This document shows, in pieces, positions 18,212 to 49,706 of a stretch of DNA of 64,000 nucleotides. The stretch's first letter is position 1. Each line of letters begins with the position of its first letter. The stretch covers positions 434,001 to 498,000 of the forward strand of contig NZ_JAEDAE010000003.1 in assembly GCF_016056375.1 (NCBI RefSeq), written 5' to 3'. Under the pieces are notes generated by a model. It was given only the letters and a program-made list of their open reading frames with translations. It had not been told where the DNA came from and searched no databases. The stretch is from Hymenobacter negativus (GTDB lineage: Bacteria; Bacteroidota; Bacteroidia; Cytophagales; Hymenobacteraceae). The position numbers and the translations under genes were made by a program.

Positions 18212-18221
18212 TATCTTGATA

Positions 18222-18301
18222 AGATGTGAGAACCTAGAACTTAGAGCCAAGAGCGTAGACGCAGTCGAAATCTAAGTTCTGAGTTCTCAGGTCTAAGGTC
18301 T
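18222..18301. repeat. Inverted degenerate heptad-repeat hairpin filling the rpsR-rplI gap
   Basis: The left arm has five 7-base units (AGATGTG, AGAACCT, AGAACTT, AGAGCCA, AGAGCGT; 18222-18256). The right arm has four units (AAGTTCT, GAGTTCT, CAGGTCT, AAGGTCT; 18274-18301) that are the reverse complement of the same type of unit, AGAnCTn. The element starts inside the TAG stop codon of rpsR and ends about 10 bases before the rplI start codon. Elements of the same design occur at 20823, 28042, 34808 and 42334. Confidence 0.88.
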
Positions 18302-20813: not shown

Positions 20814-20822
20814 TTGGTTAGT

Positions 20823-20962
20823 GGGGACTTCGGGTCTTGGGACTTAGTTTTCTCATGACTCGGCCCCTTATCCATTCTGTTACAAAAAAAGATTCCGCTT
20901 ATAAATTCAAGTACCTCGCGGCTGGTGGCCAAGTCCCCAAGTCCCCGAGTCCCTAAGTCCCC
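20823..20962. repeat. Inverted octad-repeat element in the actA-actB gap
   Basis: The right arm has four 8-base units (AAGTCCCC, AAGTCCCC, GAGTCCCT, AAGTCCCC; 20931-20962) and ends 4 bases before the actB ATG. The left arm (20823-20845) has GGGGACTT, CGGGTCTT and GGGACTT, the reverse complement of the same unit. An 85-base spacer separates the arms. The design matches the heptad elements elsewhere in the window, with an 8-base unit and a longer centre. Confidence 0.83.
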
Positions 20963-20966
20963 AAAA

Positions 20967-34807: not shown

Positions 34808-34887
34808 GAGTGTTGAATGCTGAATGTTGAGTGCTGAGTAATCAACTTGGCCAACATTCAACCCTTAACCCTCAACATTCAAAATTT
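34808..34887. repeat. Inverted heptad-repeat hairpin between subunit III and subunit IV genes
   Basis: The left arm has GAGTGTT, GAATGCT, GAATGTT, GAGTGCT, GAGTAAT (34808-34842). The right arm has AACATTC, AACCCTT, AACCCTC, AACATTC (34853-34880), whose reverse complements are GAATGTT-type units, then AAAATTT (34881-34887). A 10-base spacer separates the arms. The element starts 4 bases after the upstream stop and ends 5 bases before the downstream ATG. Confidence 0.9.
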
Positions 34888-34892
34888 CAAAA

Positions 34893-41359: not shown

Positions 41360-44300
41360 ATGATTCGTCGTTTACGCCTGTGCTTCCCCCTGGTGGGCCT
41401 GCTCGTCGCGGCGCTATTCATGGGTAGGCAAGATGCGCGGGCGCAGGCGCGGTCGTACCCGGCAGGGCCCATCAAAACCGGAGAAGCGCCGCCCAGTACC
41501 CGGCGCTGCCGCTGGGTGCGCCTCGCGCCGGGCCGTGATACGACCAGCTTTGCGCTGCCGGATTCGCTCACGGTGGTGCCCTCGTCGGTAGTTATCAACG
41601 GGCGCGGCGCGGATTATGACGGGCGCACCGACCGCTACCGCTGGGTGCGCGCCGCGCCGCGTGACAGCAGCGGCGTACCTCGACCCGATTCCATTCTGGT
41701 GTGCTACCGGGTGCTGCCGCTGCGCCTCACAGCGGCCCGCTTCCGACGGCCGCGCAGCCTGATGGACAGCCTGGGTTTTCGGCAGGTGATTTCCCGGTTC
41801 GAGGATTTCTCGGTAAAGGAGCAGATTCTGAACACACCGGGCGTGAGCAAAACGGGTAATCTGAGCCGGGGCCTAAGCTTTGGCAACACCCAGAACGTGT
41901 TTGTGAACTCGGCTCTGAACCTGCAATTGGAGGGACAACTGGCCGAAAATATTCACCTCACGGCCGCTATTTCGGACCAGAACGTGCCCTTCCAGCCTGA
42001 GGGCAACACCCAGCAGCTGCAGCAGTTCGACAAAATCTACATCACCCTCACAAACCCCAACTGGAACCTGACGGCCGGCGACGTGGTGCTGCGCAACAAG
42101 CCCGACTACTTCCTGCGCTACTACAAAAACATCCAGGGCGCGGCCGTGGAGGCCAACTTCGGTCCGCCGATGGTGGGGCTGAGCGGCTTCGGGGCCGCGC
42201 CGGGCGTGGCCAACGCGGTGTTTCTGAACGGCGTGGCGGGGCAGGTGCCGGGCGGGGCGGTCGGGCCGTCGCCGGCTACCCTCAACCCGCCGGCCATCAG
42301 CCAGCCCCAACTCACGGACCCCAACCGGCTGCCGGGAGTGGGAAGCGGGGAGCGGGGAGTGAGCACGGTGACGGTGGTCGACGGCGGGGACACTTCCCGC
42401 TCCCCGCTCCGCGCTCCCAAAAAGTGGCGCTCGTCGACGTCGGTGGCGGGCGGAGTGGCGAAGGGCAAGTTTGCCAGCATCCAGGTGCCGCCCATCGAGA
42501 ACGTGCAGGGGCCGTACCGGCTGAACGGGCCGAACGGCGAACAATTCATCATTGTGCTGGCCAATTCGGAGCGGGTGTACCTGGATGGCCGGCTGCAGAC
42601 CCGGGGCTTCGATGCCGACTACACCATCGACTACAACCTGGCCGAAGTCACGTTTACGCCGCGCCACCTCATCACCCGCAACTCACGCATCCGGATTGAT
42701 TTCGAGTATTCGGACCTCAACTATTCCCGCTCGCTGGTGGCTGCCAGCCACTACCAGCAGCTGGGCCGCCTGAGCGTGCACGGCAATTTCTACCAGGAAG
42801 CCGACAACCCCGACAACGCCCCCAACCTCAACCTGAACGACACGCTGCGCGCTGCTCTGCGCCGGGCCGGCAACGTGGCCGTGGCCACCGCCACCGGCGG
42901 CGACTCAGTGGCCTACGACCGCCGCATTGTGCAGTACCACCGCGAGCTGCGGCTGGTGGGCAGCCAGCGTGTGCCGGTGTTCACCTACGTAGGGGCCGAT
43001 TCGCCGATTGACTCGCTGCGTGGCTCCTACACGGTGCGCTTTACCGACGTGGGGCAGGGCAACGGCGACTACGCGCGCAGCACCAACCCGCGCTTCCTTA
43101 CCACCAACGGCACCGTGTATGAATACTTGGGGCCGGGTCTGGGCCGTTACCGCCCGGTGCGCCTCATCCCTACGCCGCTGCTGAAGCAGCTGGCGACGGC
43201 CGGCCTCAGCTATCAGCTGGACAGCAGCACGACGGTATTCGTGGACGTGGCCCGCTCGCGTCTCGACCGCAACCGCTTCTCCTCGGAGAGCGACCAGGAC
43301 GGGGCCATGCACGTGGGCTATACCGTGCAGGACCGCCGCCTGCCCGCCGCACTGGCCAACGGGGTTTTGAAGGATTACCGCCTCCGCTCGACGCTGGATT
43401 ACGAGTACACCGGCAAGCGCTTTTCGCCGATAGACCGCTACCGCGACATTGAATTTGACCGCAACTGGAGCAACGTGAGCACTACGGCCACCACCGGCAC
43501 TACGCCGGTGGCGCGGGAGGATAATATCTTCAATTTCAGCGTAGGGGCTAATAAGGATGCGAACAACGGAGTGAACTACCGCCTGAGCCGCCGCTTCCGG
43601 CCGGGCGAGGTGAACGGCCTGCAGCACTGGCTGGACGCGGCCCAGAAAGTGGGCAACCTGGAGATGCGCGGCTCGCTGTTTCTGCTGAATTCGGATGCCG
43701 GGCGCTTCCACTCCAACTGGGCGCGGGGCGAGGCCACGGGGCGCTTCGTGGGCGGCCGCATCGTGCCCGGCTATACCTACCGGTTCGATAAAAACCGCGT
43801 CACGTCGGCCACCACCGACACCATTCGCTCGGCCAACTACTTCGATGAGCACGACGTGTTTATCCAGAGCCGCGACTCGGCCCACACCCAGTTCCGCCTC
43901 GACTACGCCTACCGCCGCGACCAAACCCCCAACCGCGAGCAAACCGCTCTGCAACGGCGCGGCACCGCCCAAACCTGGCAGGGCACGCTGGCTTCGCGCC
44001 TGGGCAAAACCCAGGACATTCGGGTGCTGGGCACCTACCGCGACCTCGACTCCCTGGGCCTGGCCCGCAACCGCACGGTGCTGGGCCAGGTGTTCTACAA
44101 CGCCGGCCTGCTCCAAAACCAGATTCGCTCCGAGCTGAACTACAGCGTGGCCACCGGCCGCGAGCTCAAGCGCGACTACTCGTTTCTGGCCGTGCCGGCC
44201 GGGCAGGGCACGCACTACTACGCCGGCGACCTCAACGGCAACGGCCGCGAGGACAAAGACGAGTTTTTTGAGGCCCAGACGCCGGATGCGCAGTACCGTA

Positions 44301-45229
44301 CCTACATCAAAGTGTACCTGCCCACCACCGACTACATCACGGCTTTTACCAACCGGCTGGCCTACCGCCTCACCACGGCCGCCCCGCGCGGCTGGCGCGA
44401 AGCCGGCGGCTGGCGGGCGGTGGCCTCGCGCTTCGCCACGCTCACGAGCATTACCGTGGACCGTCGCACCACCGACCCGTCGGTGCTCAAGCGCCTCAGC
44501 CCCTTCAGCTTCGACAAGGAGGATGCCCAGCTGCTGGCGTTTAATCAGCTGTTTCGGAATACGCTGTATTTCAACCGGTCGAATCCGATTTTCGGGGCTG
44601 AATTCACGGTGCAGCAGACGCAGCAGAAGACGCTGCTGGCGCAAGGGTCCGATTTGCGCAACCTCACCACCCAGAGCCTGCTGCTACGCCGCACGCTGGC
44701 CACCTCGTTCACGGGCCGCCTCACGGGCTCGCGCGACATCCGCGAAGCCACCAGCAGCTACCTGCTGGCCCGCAACTACCGCCTGCTGATTTATACCGTT
44801 CAGCCCGAAATCAGCTACCAGCCCACGCCCGTACTGCGCCTTACGGGTACTTACGCGCACACCTTCAAGCAAAACACGCTCGATGCGCCCTTGCCCACGC
44901 TGCCCACGCCCACCCCGGCCGAAACGCACCCCGGCCTCTTTGATGATTTGGGCCTCGAAGCTCGCCTGAGTCAGGTGAGCAAGCGCACCATTTCGGCCGC
45001 CACGCACTACACCCGCGTGCAATTCGACGCGGACCCCACCGCCCTCAACTCCGTGGTGGCCATCGAAATCCTCAACGCCCTGCGCCCCGGCAGCAACTTC
45101 ACCTGGAACCTGAACGTGGAGCAGCGCCTCAGCAACGGCCTCAACATCACGCTGGCCTACGACGGCCGCAAAGCCAGCAACCTCAACACCGTGCACACCG
45201 GGCGCATGCAGGTGGCGGTGCTGTTTTAA
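41360..45229 (+). CDS. SprA-like giant outer-membrane beta-barrel protein
   Basis: A 1289-residue exported protein starting at ATG 41360; the GTG at 41327 would put 11 residues in front of the signal peptide and is rejected. The signal peptide ends near ARAQ. The N-terminal region has the SprA-type block GNTQNVFVNSALNLQLEGQL and DQNVPFQPEGNTQQLQQFDK. From about 400 on, the chain shows alternating aromatic/polar beta-strands ending in MQVAVLF, fitting a large barrel. SprA itself, the type IX secretion translocon and gliding protein, is nearly twice as long, so this is a shorter relative. Residues about 326-353 are encoded by an inverted heptad-repeat element inserted in frame in a Pro/Gly-rich linker. 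The gene follows the kinase by 75 bases. Confidence 0.8.
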   Translation: MIRRLRLCFPLVGLLVAALFMGRQDARAQARSYPAGPIKTGEAPPSTRRCRWVRLAPGRDTTSFALPDSLTVVPSSVVINGRGADYDGRTDRYRWVRAAPRDSSGVPRPDSILVCYRVLPLRLTAARFRRPRSLMDSLGFRQVISRFEDFSVKEQILNTPGVSKTGNLSRGLSFGNTQNVFVNSALNLQLEGQLAENIHLTAAISDQNVPFQPEGNTQQLQQFDKIYITLTNPNWNLTAGDVVLRNKPDYFLRYYKNIQGAAVEANFGPPMVGLSGFGAAPGVANAVFLNGVAGQVPGGAVGPSPATLNPPAISQPQLTDPNRLPGVGSGERGVSTVTVVDGGDTSRSPLRAPKKWRSSTSVAGGVAKGKFASIQVPPIENVQGPYRLNGPNGEQFIIVLANSERVYLDGRLQTRGFDADYTIDYNLAEVTFTPRHLITRNSRIRIDFEYSDLNYSRSLVAASHYQQLGRLSVHGNFYQEADNPDNAPNLNLNDTLRAALRRAGNVAVATATGGDSVAYDRRIVQYHRELRLVGSQRVPVFTYVGADSPIDSLRGSYTVRFTDVGQGNGDYARSTNPRFLTTNGTVYEYLGPGLGRYRPVRLIPTPLLKQLATAGLSYQLDSSTTVFVDVARSRLDRNRFSSESDQDGAMHVGYTVQDRRLPAALANGVLKDYRLRSTLDYEYTGKRFSPIDRYRDIEFDRNWSNVSTTATTGTTPVAREDNIFNFSVGANKDANNGVNYRLSRRFRPGEVNGLQHWLDAAQKVGNLEMRGSLFLLNSDAGRFHSNWARGEATGRFVGGRIVPGYTYRFDKNRVTSATTDTIRSANYFDEHDVFIQSRDSAHTQFRLDYAYRRDQTPNREQTALQRRGTAQTWQGTLASRLGKTQDIRVLGTYRDLDSLGLARNRTVLGQVFYNAGLLQNQIRSELNYSVATGRELKRDYSFLAVPAGQGTHYYAGDLNGNGREDKDEFFEAQTPDAQYRTYIKVYLPTTDYITAFTNRLAYRLTTAAPRGWREAGGWRAVASRFATLTSITVDRRTTDPSVLKRLSPFSFDKEDAQLLAFNQLFRNTLYFNRSNPIFGAEFTVQQTQQKTLLAQGSDLRNLTTQSLLLRRTLATSFTGRLTGSRDIREATSSYLLARNYRLLIYTVQPEISYQPTPVLRLTGTYAHTFKQNTLDAPLPTLPTPTPAETHPGLFDDLGLEARLSQVSKRTISAATHYTRVQFDADPTALNSVVAIEILNALRPGSNFTWNLNVEQRLSNGLNITLAYDGRKASNLNTVHTGRMQVAVLF
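42334..42418. repeat. Inverted heptad-repeat element inside the SprA-like coding sequence
   Basis: The left arm has GGGAGTG, GGAAGCG, GGGAGCG, GGGAGTG (42334-42361). The right arm has CACTTCC, CGCTCCC, CGCTCCG, CGCTCCC (42391-42418). The arms match as reverse complements at 24 of 28 positions, with a 29-base spacer. The reading frame stays open through it and encodes a Gly/Ser/Arg-rich linker. The design is that of the intercistronic elements elsewhere in the window. Confidence 0.85.
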
Positions 45230-45251: not shown

Positions 45252-45346
45252 TCTGGTGTAGAGACGCATATTTGCGTGTCGTCGGCCGCACCGTTACCGC
45301 AATTTCTGTTCAACGACGAGACGCAAATATGCGTCTCTACACCAGA
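45252..45346. repeat. Palindromic MITE-like element
   Basis: Arms 45252-45284 and 45314-45346 are 33 bases each and pair with one mismatch around a 29-base centre. The outer part includes GGTGTAGAGACGCATATTTG and its reverse complement. It occupies most of the 154-base gap between the SprA-like and exonuclease genes. No coding capacity is present. The GTAGAGACGC palindrome resembles dispersed repeats known from several bacterial phyla, which I recall but cannot verify here. Confidence 0.85.
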
Positions 45347-47529: not shown

Positions 47530-47540
47530 AGTAAGAATGG

Positions 47541-47653
47541 TGTAGCGCCGCAGACTTGCGGCTCGTCGGTCGCGCCGTCAGGACGGGTCCAGTGTCGCCG
47601 TTCAACCGAAGGTCAGCGAAGCTAACGATGAGCCGCAAAGATGCGCTGCTACA
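47541..47653. repeat. Imperfect palindromic element overlapping the end of the GH20 gene
   Basis: Arms 47541-47568 and 47626-47653 match as reverse complements at 22 of 28 positions, separated by 57 bases. Each arm begins TGTAGC at its outer end. The outer end of the right arm contains the TAG stop codon (47649-47651) of the leftward GH20 gene. Confidence 0.72.
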
Positions 47654-49706
47654 GCCCGACCAGCTTGCGGGCGGCTTTCACCACGGCCAATTCGGCCTGG
47701 CCGGCGGGGGCCTGTGCGGCATCCAGCGTGGCGCGAGTGGCGGCCAGCCACGCCAGGGAGGGAACCTGACCGGTTTGCAGCTGCGTGAGGCGCTCCAGCA
47801 CCACGGTAGCCACGGCGGCCAGCCGGGTGGAGAGCGGGCCGTATTCCGTCAGGCTGGGGTTAGCGGCGAGCAGGGGTTGGAGCAGTACATCGTTGACCTG
47901 CCAGCGTACGGCCTGAGCCCGCAGCGTGCCCAGCTGGCGCAGCGAGGCCGGCAGCCAATTAGGCGAAGCGGGCTTGAACGCCACCACACTGTCCACCAGC
48001 ACGCCGAAGCGGCGGGCCACATCCGACTCGGCCGGCGCGGCATCTACCAAGCGGTTGAGCGGGGTGGCGGTGGTGTAGTTGAAGCCCTGGAAATTGCGTT
48101 TATATTCCTTCACCGGCTCAATAACTTCGGCCAGGGTGCGCAGCGGAACCACGTTGCTGGTGCCAGCCATCTGCTTCAGCAGCAGTTCGGGCACGCGGCG
48201 GTGGCGCAGGCCCAGCGTTTCGAGCTGCGGGGACAATACATTCAGCCGGCGGTACATATCCGCCACGCTCTGAGTCGCAGCCTGCGGCGACCACAGCCGC
48301 TCGGCCACGGCGGCCGCCCGGGGCCAGATGCGCGAGTCGAGTACGACCGAATCGGCGTATTCGGCCCACATAGCCGCCTCGCCACCCAGCACCAGCTTCT
48401 GCTCGGCGGCCGTGAGGGGCGTGTCGGGCGGCAGCGGGTCGGTGAGGTAGGAACTGGCCGCGCTGAGGTTCAAATCGATGTAATAACCACTCGAAAGCAG
48501 CACCGGGTGGCCAAGTTTTGCAGCATCGTTCAGGCCCTTTTTGCCCCGCCAGCTTTGGATGACGGCTTCTTTTGGTAAGTCGGGGCCGAGAATTTCATCC
48601 CAGCCAATCATGGTTTTGCCACGCTGTTGCAGCATCACCATCACGCGGCGGTTGAAATAAGTTTGCAATTGGTGCTTGTCTACGGTTTTGCCGTCTGCCT
48701 TCACCATTTTGTGGGCCTGCATCCAGGCCACGATGCGCGGGGTGCGCCGCCAGTTGCGGCCGTCGTTTTCGTCGCCGCCGGCGTGGAAATACGGGTCCGG
48801 AAACAGCGTCGTCATCTCCGTCAGCAGCGAATCCAGGAAGGTGTAGGTGGTTTCGCGGGTCGGGTCGATGGCCACGTTGGTGGTGCGCCAGCGGGTGTAG
48901 GGGGCGTAAGTCGAATCGGCCGATTTCAGGCGCGGGTAGGCCACAATCCAGCTGGTGGTGTGACTGGGCATGTCGAACTCCGGCACCACGCGGATGCCGC
49001 GCGCCGCCGCGTAAGCCACCACCTCGCGTACCTCGGCTTGGGTATAAAACAGCCCATCGGTGCTGCCCACCGTCTGCAAACGCGGAAAAACCTTGCTTTC
49101 GATGCGAAAGCCCTGGTCATCGGTGAGGTGCCAGTGTAGTACGTTCAGCTTCACGGCCGCCATGCCGTCGAGGTTGCGCTTGATGACGGCCACGGGCATA
49201 AAGTGCCTCGCCGCGTCAATCAGGAGCCCGCGCCAGGCAAAGCGCGGCTGGTCCCGGATGTCGACTTCGGGCAGATAGCGGCCTTTCTTATCGGTGCGCG
49301 GCAATTGCTCCAGCGTGGCCAGTGCCCGCAGCACGCCCAGGCTGGTGGGGGCGTCGATGCTCACGCCCATTGGCGTCACGCGCAGCGAATACCGCTCTTC
49401 GTCAAACAGCTCGGGCCGGCCCACGCGGCCGTAGCGGATTTGCAGCGTGGCCAGCCCCGCCGTTTTCGTGGCCAGCGATAGGCGGTTGATGGTACGGCCC
49501 ACCGCGTCCGCCACCGCCGGGTCTACCTGAGCTGGCAACAGCGGTTTCAGCGACGTTTTTAACAGTAGATGACCCTGGCCGTAATTGGCTTCGGCAGGCA
49601 GCGGTAGTAATGCAGACGCGGTTTGAGCCGCCGCCGGGCGCGTCAGCAGCCCCAGCAGTAGCACCAGCCATTTCCCCCATTTCGGCGCTTTCCCAGTTTT
49701 TGGCAT
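47649..49706 (-). CDS. Beta-N-acetylhexosaminidase, glycoside hydrolase family 20
   Basis: A 685-residue exported GH20 enzyme that removes terminal GlcNAc/GalNAc from chitin oligomers or glycans. The signal peptide (about 1-27) ends AAAQ. A GH20b domain (about 30-150) precedes the catalytic barrel (about 155-490). Visible motifs are LLIDAARHFMPVAVIKRNLD, LHWHLTDDQGFRIES, VPEFDMPSHTTSW and the catalytic pair in AGGDEND near residue 312. The C-terminal part (about 500-685) is helical. Its stop codon is embedded in the palindromic element. Confidence 0.95.
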   Translation of the reverse strand: MPKTGKAPKWGKWLVLLLGLLTRPAAAQTASALLPLPAEANYGQGHLLLKTSLKPLLPAQVDPAVADAVGRTINRLSLATKTAGLATLQIRYGRVGRPELFDEERYSLRVTPMGVSIDAPTSLGVLRALATLEQLPRTDKKGRYLPEVDIRDQPRFAWRGLLIDAARHFMPVAVIKRNLDGMAAVKLNVLHWHLTDDQGFRIESKVFPRLQTVGSTDGLFYTQAEVREVVAYAAARGIRVVPEFDMPSHTTSWIVAYPRLKSADSTYAPYTRWRTTNVAIDPTRETTYTFLDSLLTEMTTLFPDPYFHAGGDENDGRNWRRTPRIVAWMQAHKMVKADGKTVDKHQLQTYFNRRVMVMLQQRGKTMIGWDEILGPDLPKEAVIQSWRGKKGLNDAAKLGHPVLLSSGYYIDLNLSAASSYLTDPLPPDTPLTAAEQKLVLGGEAAMWAEYADSVVLDSRIWPRAAAVAERLWSPQAATQSVADMYRRLNVLSPQLETLGLRHRRVPELLLKQMAGTSNVVPLRTLAEVIEPVKEYKRNFQGFNYTTATPLNRLVDAAPAESDVARRFGVLVDSVVAFKPASPNWLPASLRQLGTLRAQAVRWQVNDVLLQPLLAANPSLTEYGPLSTRLAAVATVVLERLTQLQTGQVPSLAWLAATRATLDAAQAPAGQAELAVVKAARKLVGL

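Follow-up and report, generated by a model that had tools for sequence, protein, structure and literature searches.

Heptad arrays are known from heterocystous cyanobacteria as the STRR heptamers, and heptads also occur in the tRNA-Leu intron, where they make up stem-forming arms. The nearest described relatives of the element reported here are the inverted GGGAATC heptamers of Xanthomonas. GGGAATC, or (GGGANTN)n, heptamers were described in Xanthomonas and GGGGA(C/T)T heptamers in Nostoc (Rehm et al. 2015, PMC4692102). In that study, the Xanthomonas heptamers include convergent array pairs (70 and 75 cases), are mostly located no more than 50 bp from ORFs, overlap ORFs in 7-11% of cases and, when two species were compared, kept their gene context in 83% of cases (PMC4692102). 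TAACTGA heptamers were described in Beggiatoaceae, cyanobacteria and some Bacteroidetes (MacGregor 2015, PMC4679880). They are direct repeats with a unit of seven bases, placed shortly before start codons and in some cases within ORFs or ribosomal protein operons, and indels between strains occur in 7-nt steps; one inverted case was recorded, related heptamers were called rare, and a binding site for a translational regulator was proposed (PMC4679880). Rickettsia palindromic elements (Ogata 2000, 2002, reviewed in PMC10969869) are tolerated in frame inside unrelated protein genes. They are about 150 bp long, show no heptad periodicity and group into families, within each of which both the sequence and the encoded peptide are conserved (PMC10969869). 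In bacteria, heptad repeats have mainly drawn attention as oddities of intergenic DNA. The orthologues compared here show intragenic stages.

We analyzed a 64,000-nucleotide stretch (the window) of the genome of Hymenobacter negativus (5.14 Mb, designated G000). The close relatives retrieved were all Hymenobacter. A period-7 scan, which required arms to be both periodic and mutually complementary, identified three elements in the window, one of them inside a SprA-like gene:

41360..45229, + strand: SprA-like host gene, 1289 aa, open throughout (ORF; local weak TIGR04189 match)
42331..42422, + strand: whole heptad foldback element (period-7 scan)
42334..42361, + strand: arm 1, GGGAGTG GGAAGCG GGGAGCG GGGAGTG (28 nt, four heptads)
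42362..42390, + strand: loop, 29 nt
42391..42418, + strand: arm 2, reverse complement GGGAGCG CGGAGCG GGGAGCG GGAAGTG (28 nt, four heptads on the complementary strand)
18220-18296: heptad foldback with the word TAGAACT, in the rpsR-rplI gap (18212-18299)
34808-34891: heptad foldback with the word TTGAATG, in a gap between co-directional genes

The preliminary description of this DNA had recognized two GGGAGCG-type arms in the SprA-like gene, an open frame through them and a linker of about 28 encoded residues in a Pro/Gly-rich region, and our analysis bears it out on these points. The arms, 29 nt apart, are complementary at 24 of 28 positions (86%), and their heptads take the form GGRAGYG. The ORF is uninterrupted from the ATG at 41360 to the stop codon at 45229, and the element is read in frame as ...LTDPNRLPG-VGSGERGVSTVTVVDGGDTSRSPLRAPK-KWRSST.... 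The surrounding linker, from QPQL to SST, is Pro/Gly-rich and variable in every orthologue compared, although its length differs little, at 31-50 residues and mostly 42-45. The host protein is only weakly SprA-like, as TIGR04189 matched residues 399-453 alone, with 21 bits against a cut-off of 200. A Pfam search of this protein detected no families, a PDB sequence search returned nothing, and the AlphaFold model was uninformative in the linker region (mean pLDDT 35).

No elements were detected in the window at periods 6, 8, 9, 10 and 11, and a few period-5 matches were due to a looser threshold. With a stricter threshold, two elements were found in the window versus none in 60 dinucleotide shuffles. 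In addition, the best score in the host gene (42) was not reached in any of 300 synonymous-codon shuffles (maximum 39) or 300 codon permutations of the gene (maximum 33). On the strength of these shuffles, a chance origin in GC-rich coding DNA was rejected.

Like the repeats of Rehm et al. (PMC4692102), the Hymenobacter elements are dispersed heptad arrays with a GGGA-type core, convergent pairs and a constant gene context with variable sequence. With respect to the unit GGGANTN, GGGAGTG of the present arms fits, and GGGAGCG and GGAAGCG do not. The available part of that report describes one or two words per genome, whereas Hymenobacter has many words, which differ even in the same gap of sister species; it treats the repeats as quadruplex motifs and does not describe an in-frame empty site or a stepwise arm history. 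Heptads, 7-nt steps and occurrence in Bacteroidetes are shared with the TAACTGA repeats, and TAACTGA is the 3′-arm form of the Hymenobacter CAGTT word. However, the word in the SprA-like gene is GGRAGYG, CAGTT-type words being located elsewhere, and the elements are foldbacks and not direct repeats. A palindromic repeat in frame within a protein gene is also a feature of Rickettsia palindromic elements. Unlike those, copies in Hymenobacter have only heptad words in common, their loops are not shared and their words differ; an empty site in orthologues was present for hscA (see below) and absent for the SprA-like gene. Short dispersed hairpins in intergenic gaps resemble REP sequences mobilized by IS200-type (RAYT, PF01797) enzymes, and REP-like GTCATGCTGAGCGCAGTCGAAGCATGAC hairpins adjoin or replace heptad elements; yet the heptad foldbacks have no conserved foot, consensus hairpin or ends, and the window genome has no PF01797. 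Separately, an inverted repeat with a REP-like look (GTGTAGAGACGCATATTTGCGT...ACGCAAATATGCGTCTCTACACCA) is located downstream of the SprA-like gene (45256-45346), and a further palindromic pair (GTGTAGCGCCGCAGACTTGCGGCTC...GAGCCGCAAAGATGCGCTGCTACA) lies between genes at 47540-47655.

Different states of the linker were found in 29 Hymenobacter orthologues. H. artigasi (genome G009, locus L036) has arm 1 alone (GGGAGCG GGAAGCG GGGAGCG GGGAGTG, CCGGGAGCGGGAAGCGGGGAGCGGGGAGTGGGC) in a linker as long as that of the window species, and arm 1 is followed by sequence common to other species (...SAGVRKGLAWRSST). In H. siberiensis (G071, L038) and its sister or close relative (G072, L037), a single heptad is present (CCGGGAGTGGGC), and the linker is shorter by exactly 21 nt. 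At this locus, G099 has neither arm 1 nor the single heptad; in most other species, the linker is of similar length and its sequence is unrelated. Arm 2 was not detected outside the window species, where it takes the position of SAGVRKGLA in others with no net change in length; the ancestral GVRKGL-type sequence is kept in all four nearest relatives and in most other species. Among all SprA loci retrieved, only that of the window genome contains the two-armed element. In a tree of the flanking protein, the window species was placed outside a clade of H. artigasi with (G071,G072) (support 100/97), implying that arm 1 is older than arm 2. The one-armed, one-heptad and ancestral arm-2 states of the relatives therefore suggest stepwise assembly that overwrote linker sequence. 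Because the arms differ at 4 of 28 positions, arm 2 is not a fresh exact copy. No second copy of the loop was found elsewhere in the genome by DNA search, and the whole element as a query retrieved arm fragments alone and never the loop. The loop shares 8 nt (CACGGTGA) with the sequence that follows arm 1 in H. artigasi; some of the loop may accordingly be old, but so short a match carries little weight.

These states differ from those expected of a single insertion. The preliminary description had named orthologues lacking residues of about 326-353, with intact flanks, as a sign of insertion, and had advised a look for a target duplication at the DNA borders. Instead, orthologues have arm-1-only, one-heptad or unrelated linkers, and no target duplication was recognizable at the borders of the element. 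On the basis of orthologue DNA, in which H. artigasi is one-armed at equal length and H. siberiensis and its sister are 21 nt shorter, we reject one insertion event accompanied by target duplication for this locus. The observation that the preliminary description had said would refute it, the same residues in distant genera, was not made: Algoriphagus orthologues match only 438 nt of the 690-nt region.

We favor, with moderate confidence, the view that this intragenic heptad foldback grew in place in a disposable Pro/Gly linker and was not inserted whole. In addition to the one-armed, one-heptad and ancestral linkers of relatives and the restriction of both arms to the window species, this view is supported by the tree, by 7-nt indels between elements of G071 and G072, by the in-frame length change in a deacetylase-like gene (see below), by the stop-free word, by the specificity for period 7, by the lack of PF01797 in the window genome and by the retrieval of arm fragments without the loop. 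In the simplest history, drawn from the sequences of a few genomes, arm 1 came first: comparison shows about four GGRAGYG heptads already present in the linker before the window species and H. artigasi diverged. The H. siberiensis lineage then lost exactly three units, or 21 nt, of this array. Arm 2 was added later and in the window lineage alone, where an inverted copy of the array took the place of the downstream sequence. The likeliest maker would be slippage combined with template switching: seven-base slippage would extend and trim arrays, and an intramolecular template switch during replication would copy an array backwards. Within a gene, frame-preserving changes alone, in 21-nt steps, would survive.

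The GC-rich word is not confined to the SprA-like gene. GGRAGYG occurs at about nine loci in the window genome (24 matches with one mismatch allowed; none in a backwards control); of 120 Hymenobacter genomes, 13 have it too, at different loci. Further intragenic elements were detected, one of which corresponds to a clean empty site in relatives:

L012 1500-1585 (G000:C17:199584): two-armed GGRARYG element in hscA (HscA by NCBIfam)

This copy encodes EVGSEKREAGHTTEPSSASHSPLPAP, with 24 extra residues immediately before the VLLVGGSTR motif. In H. artigasi, H. siberiensis, G072 and G099, the sequence reads DAKL-ET-KLDAV or DAKL-DT-KLDAV with contiguous flanks and a net difference of 72 nt, i.e., these four relatives have a precise in-frame empty site without any seed heptad. 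No target duplication was recognizable at the hscA copy. The empty site implies that new sites do arise; in this respect the earlier proposal of elements arising at new sites stands for hscA, while the single insertion assumed for the SprA-like locus does not. The SprA-like copy, which had been put forward as the strongest hint of movement, is not unique given the other intragenic copies.

Among these, host identities that did not come from a family search were assigned by eye. The GC-rich word is present in a D-Ala-D-Ala-ligase-like gene (L020), and GGGAGCG heptads form one arm in the FtsK linker of the window species (L003); neither linker can be used as an empty site because it varies in every relative. 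The FtsK linker of H. artigasi (L268) contains a different heptad word, CAGCAACGAGAAACCAGCGACTAGAAACC. A methylmalonyl-CoA-mutase-like gene of G071 and G072 has a two-armed GAGTTAA element and is 17 residues net longer than in the window species, and another two-armed GAGTTAA element lies inside a nuclease-like gene of H. siberiensis. An alpha/beta-hydrolase-like gene encodes KSEELRV...LLTLNSQL in H. siberiensis, with a similar element in the window species and a different heptad word in the same linker of G067 (NSSFLIPHSSL). The array in a deacetylase-like gene has changed in frame: its length in G071 and G072, whose flanks there are almost identical, differs by exactly 21 nt, and H. artigasi is without a block of about 84 nt. 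The one-armed and two-armed stages, the 21-nt changes and the hscA empty site catch the process inside genes.

Besides the four mismatches between the arms, two observations speak against growth in place. The hscA copy, with both arms and a new loop absent from four relatives, looks like insertion of a finished element, and the presence of the GC-rich word at about nine loci, and at other loci in relatives, is beyond what local slippage alone explains. Since slippage and template switching do not account for them, a mobile foldback of the Rickettsia-palindromic-element kind keeps substantial confidence as a possible but less probable origin. Finished two-armed elements would then be inserted by a putative trans-acting enzyme into gaps and as in-frame linkers, and the H. 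artigasi state would represent decay. The clean 72-nt hscA site, dispersal of one word within the genome and at other loci in relatives (backwards controls near 0), the GAGTTAA elements in the mutase-like and nuclease-like genes, and variation in the presence of elements between species at matched sites all agree with mobility. However, the clade of one-armed and armless relatives excludes the window species, and all of its members keep the ancestral arm-2 region, so that loss would need to restore ancestral sequence. Loops were not common to copies in the whole-element DNA search, no target duplication was seen and no candidate enzyme was found. A search for the Y1/IS200-type transposase PF01797 detected none in the window genome, and 1-9 matches were present in four sampled relatives. 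Its absence indicates that a Y1/IS200-type enzyme is not needed for the copies in the window genome, and RAYT/REP mobilization there was rejected. It is unlikely, but worth considering, that an active process of Bacteroidota, perhaps with a dedicated enzyme, writes foldbacks of freely chosen words in operon gaps and linkers, replaces the word while keeping place, length and symmetry, and occasionally seeds new genic sites.

We consider it improbable that the elements are functional intercistronic RNA hairpins, acting for example in translational coupling or processing, and that the intragenic copy is a stray. The location of gap elements, often within a few nt of stop and start codons, and the filled rpsR-rplI gap in most of 27 species, mostly of 88-96 nt despite about eight words, would suit such a role. 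Yet mismatches between arms, read on the sense strand, comprised 29 G-U and 43 A-C pairs, without the G-U excess expected of RNA-level selection, and co-directional gaps were not enriched (38 of 52 elements versus 840 of 1224 neighbour pairs). RNA-level selection was rejected on these two negative tests, and evidence from gaps has no bearing on the copy in the ORF. An Rfam search of the window yielded no matches to known RNA families. By analogy with the proposal for Xanthomonas GGGAATC repeats, G-rich heptads might have been retained for G-quadruplex formation: arm 1 has a GGGG run at each seven-base step, two loci of the genome contain heptads of the GGGAATC type, and quadruplexes of the Xanthomonas heptamers are described in vitro (PMC4692102). 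This would be a very improbable explanation, as most Hymenobacter family members have AT-rich words unable to form quadruplexes. Hardly credible at all is an ordinary low-complexity linker whose GC-rich Gly/Ser/Arg/Pro codons mimic an inverted heptad by chance. The linker is indeed Pro/Gly-rich and variable in every orthologue, but neither kind of codon shuffle reached the observed score, and the word recurs at about nine loci, with backwards controls of zero and at period 7 only.

The element of the SprA-like gene, for which we favor growth in place, is a member of a genuine family of heptad foldbacks that spans the phylum. In a census covering 1.58 Mb from three genomes, raw scan matches, a few of which were other palindromes, numbered 10 in 380 kb of the window genome, 19 in 400 kb of G072 and 20 in 400 kb of G071, or 26-50 per Mb; the same stretches gave 0-7 matches at periods 5, 6, 8, 9 and 10. 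Density was lower in G067 (10 matches in 400 kb). Of 395 Bacteroidota genomes, 98 contain the two-armed pattern GARYNNN x3 ... RYTCNNN x3, and at the genus level it is present in 53 of 170; its backwards control matched five genomes. Each element has its own word, including GAGTTAA, TTAGCTG, AATTATA, GAATGAG, TTGAATG, TAGAACT, GTTTCTG, TAGTCAG, GATAAGG and GGGAGCG. Within an element, each heptad of one arm has its mirror image in the other, and this holds for odd heptads too (e.g., GAGTTAT GAGTTGA GAGTTAT GAGTTAT at C3:33237), and GAGTTAA-type words have the AGTT form on the 5′ arm wherever examined. Several elements of G071 and G072 differ by single 7-nt indels, and presence at matched sites differs between species. 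Dispersed 7-bp tandem arrays thus occur beyond chance, and convergent arrays form inverted repeats; the family represents a new form of an already known repeat type. No description of such a many-word family in Bacteroidota was found in the open-access literature.

Gap elements often end a few nt from the preceding stop codon and the following start codon. In orthologous gaps of the window species and H. siberiensis, with flanks about 86-96% identical, the words often differ; for instance, the gap that contains the element at 34808-34891 has a GAGTTAA-word element in H. siberiensis. The rpsR-rplI gap is occupied by heptad foldbacks of 86-125 nt in most of the 27 Hymenobacter species read, with a distribution of words that does not track kinship. 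Between the window species and H. siberiensis, its flanks are 94-96% identical and the gap 50%; between H. siberiensis and the more distant G056, the gap is 97% identical and the flanks 88-93%. This suggests that gap alleles were exchanged via conserved ribosomal genes, or that words were retained convergently. Words of sister species in this gap thus represent hypervariable sequence with fixed place and length in an essential operon.

Survival of copies in coding DNA has a simple arithmetic side. As 7 and 3 share no factor, at least three equal heptads are read as one seven-residue peptide in every frame, and a word is consequently stop-free in all frames or in none. From one strand, arrays of GGRAGYG are read as GSGERGA, and from the opposite strand as RSPLPAP. 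Of all possible heptads, half lack stop codons on both strands. GGRAGYG is one of these, with no stop in any frame of either strand, and GAGTTAA, TTAGCTG, AATTATA, TAGAACT and TTGAATG are not. Only 5 of 52 two-armed elements outside ORFs have stop-free words; the elements found in genes are therefore plausibly what remains after such filtering. Where AT-rich words lie inside genes, the frame is kept open through variant heptads alone. Tolerance of the present element in its gene would thus be due to one peptide in three frames, a stop-free word and the survival of frame-keeping changes alone. The encoded peptide is best seen as a neutral linker, a passive survivor of a DNA-level process that is mostly visible in gaps, and we propose no function for it. 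In genome annotation, a short stretch of Gly/Ser/Arg or of the KSEELRV kind in a Bacteroidota protein could be a DNA repeat instead of a conserved domain.

The interest of these elements rests on the family and its behaviour more than on the copy in the SprA-like gene. Why the unit is seven bases, and whether arrays move, grow or copy backwards, is a question of long standing that can now be tested in one culturable genus. Two further structures were noted beside the heptad elements. At L228 of H. siberiensis (G071:C1:2188740-2188845), the heptad array contains an extra 83-nt near-perfect palindrome enclosing GTCATGCTTCGACTGCGCTCAGCATGAC; G072, otherwise nearly identical at this locus, is without this palindrome. 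In the window, a period-8 sibling is present at 20814-20966, with two arms of AAGTCCCC octads (GGGACTT... / ...CCAAGTCCCCAAGTCCCC), and the same site in H. siberiensis contains a TAGTCAG heptad foldback.
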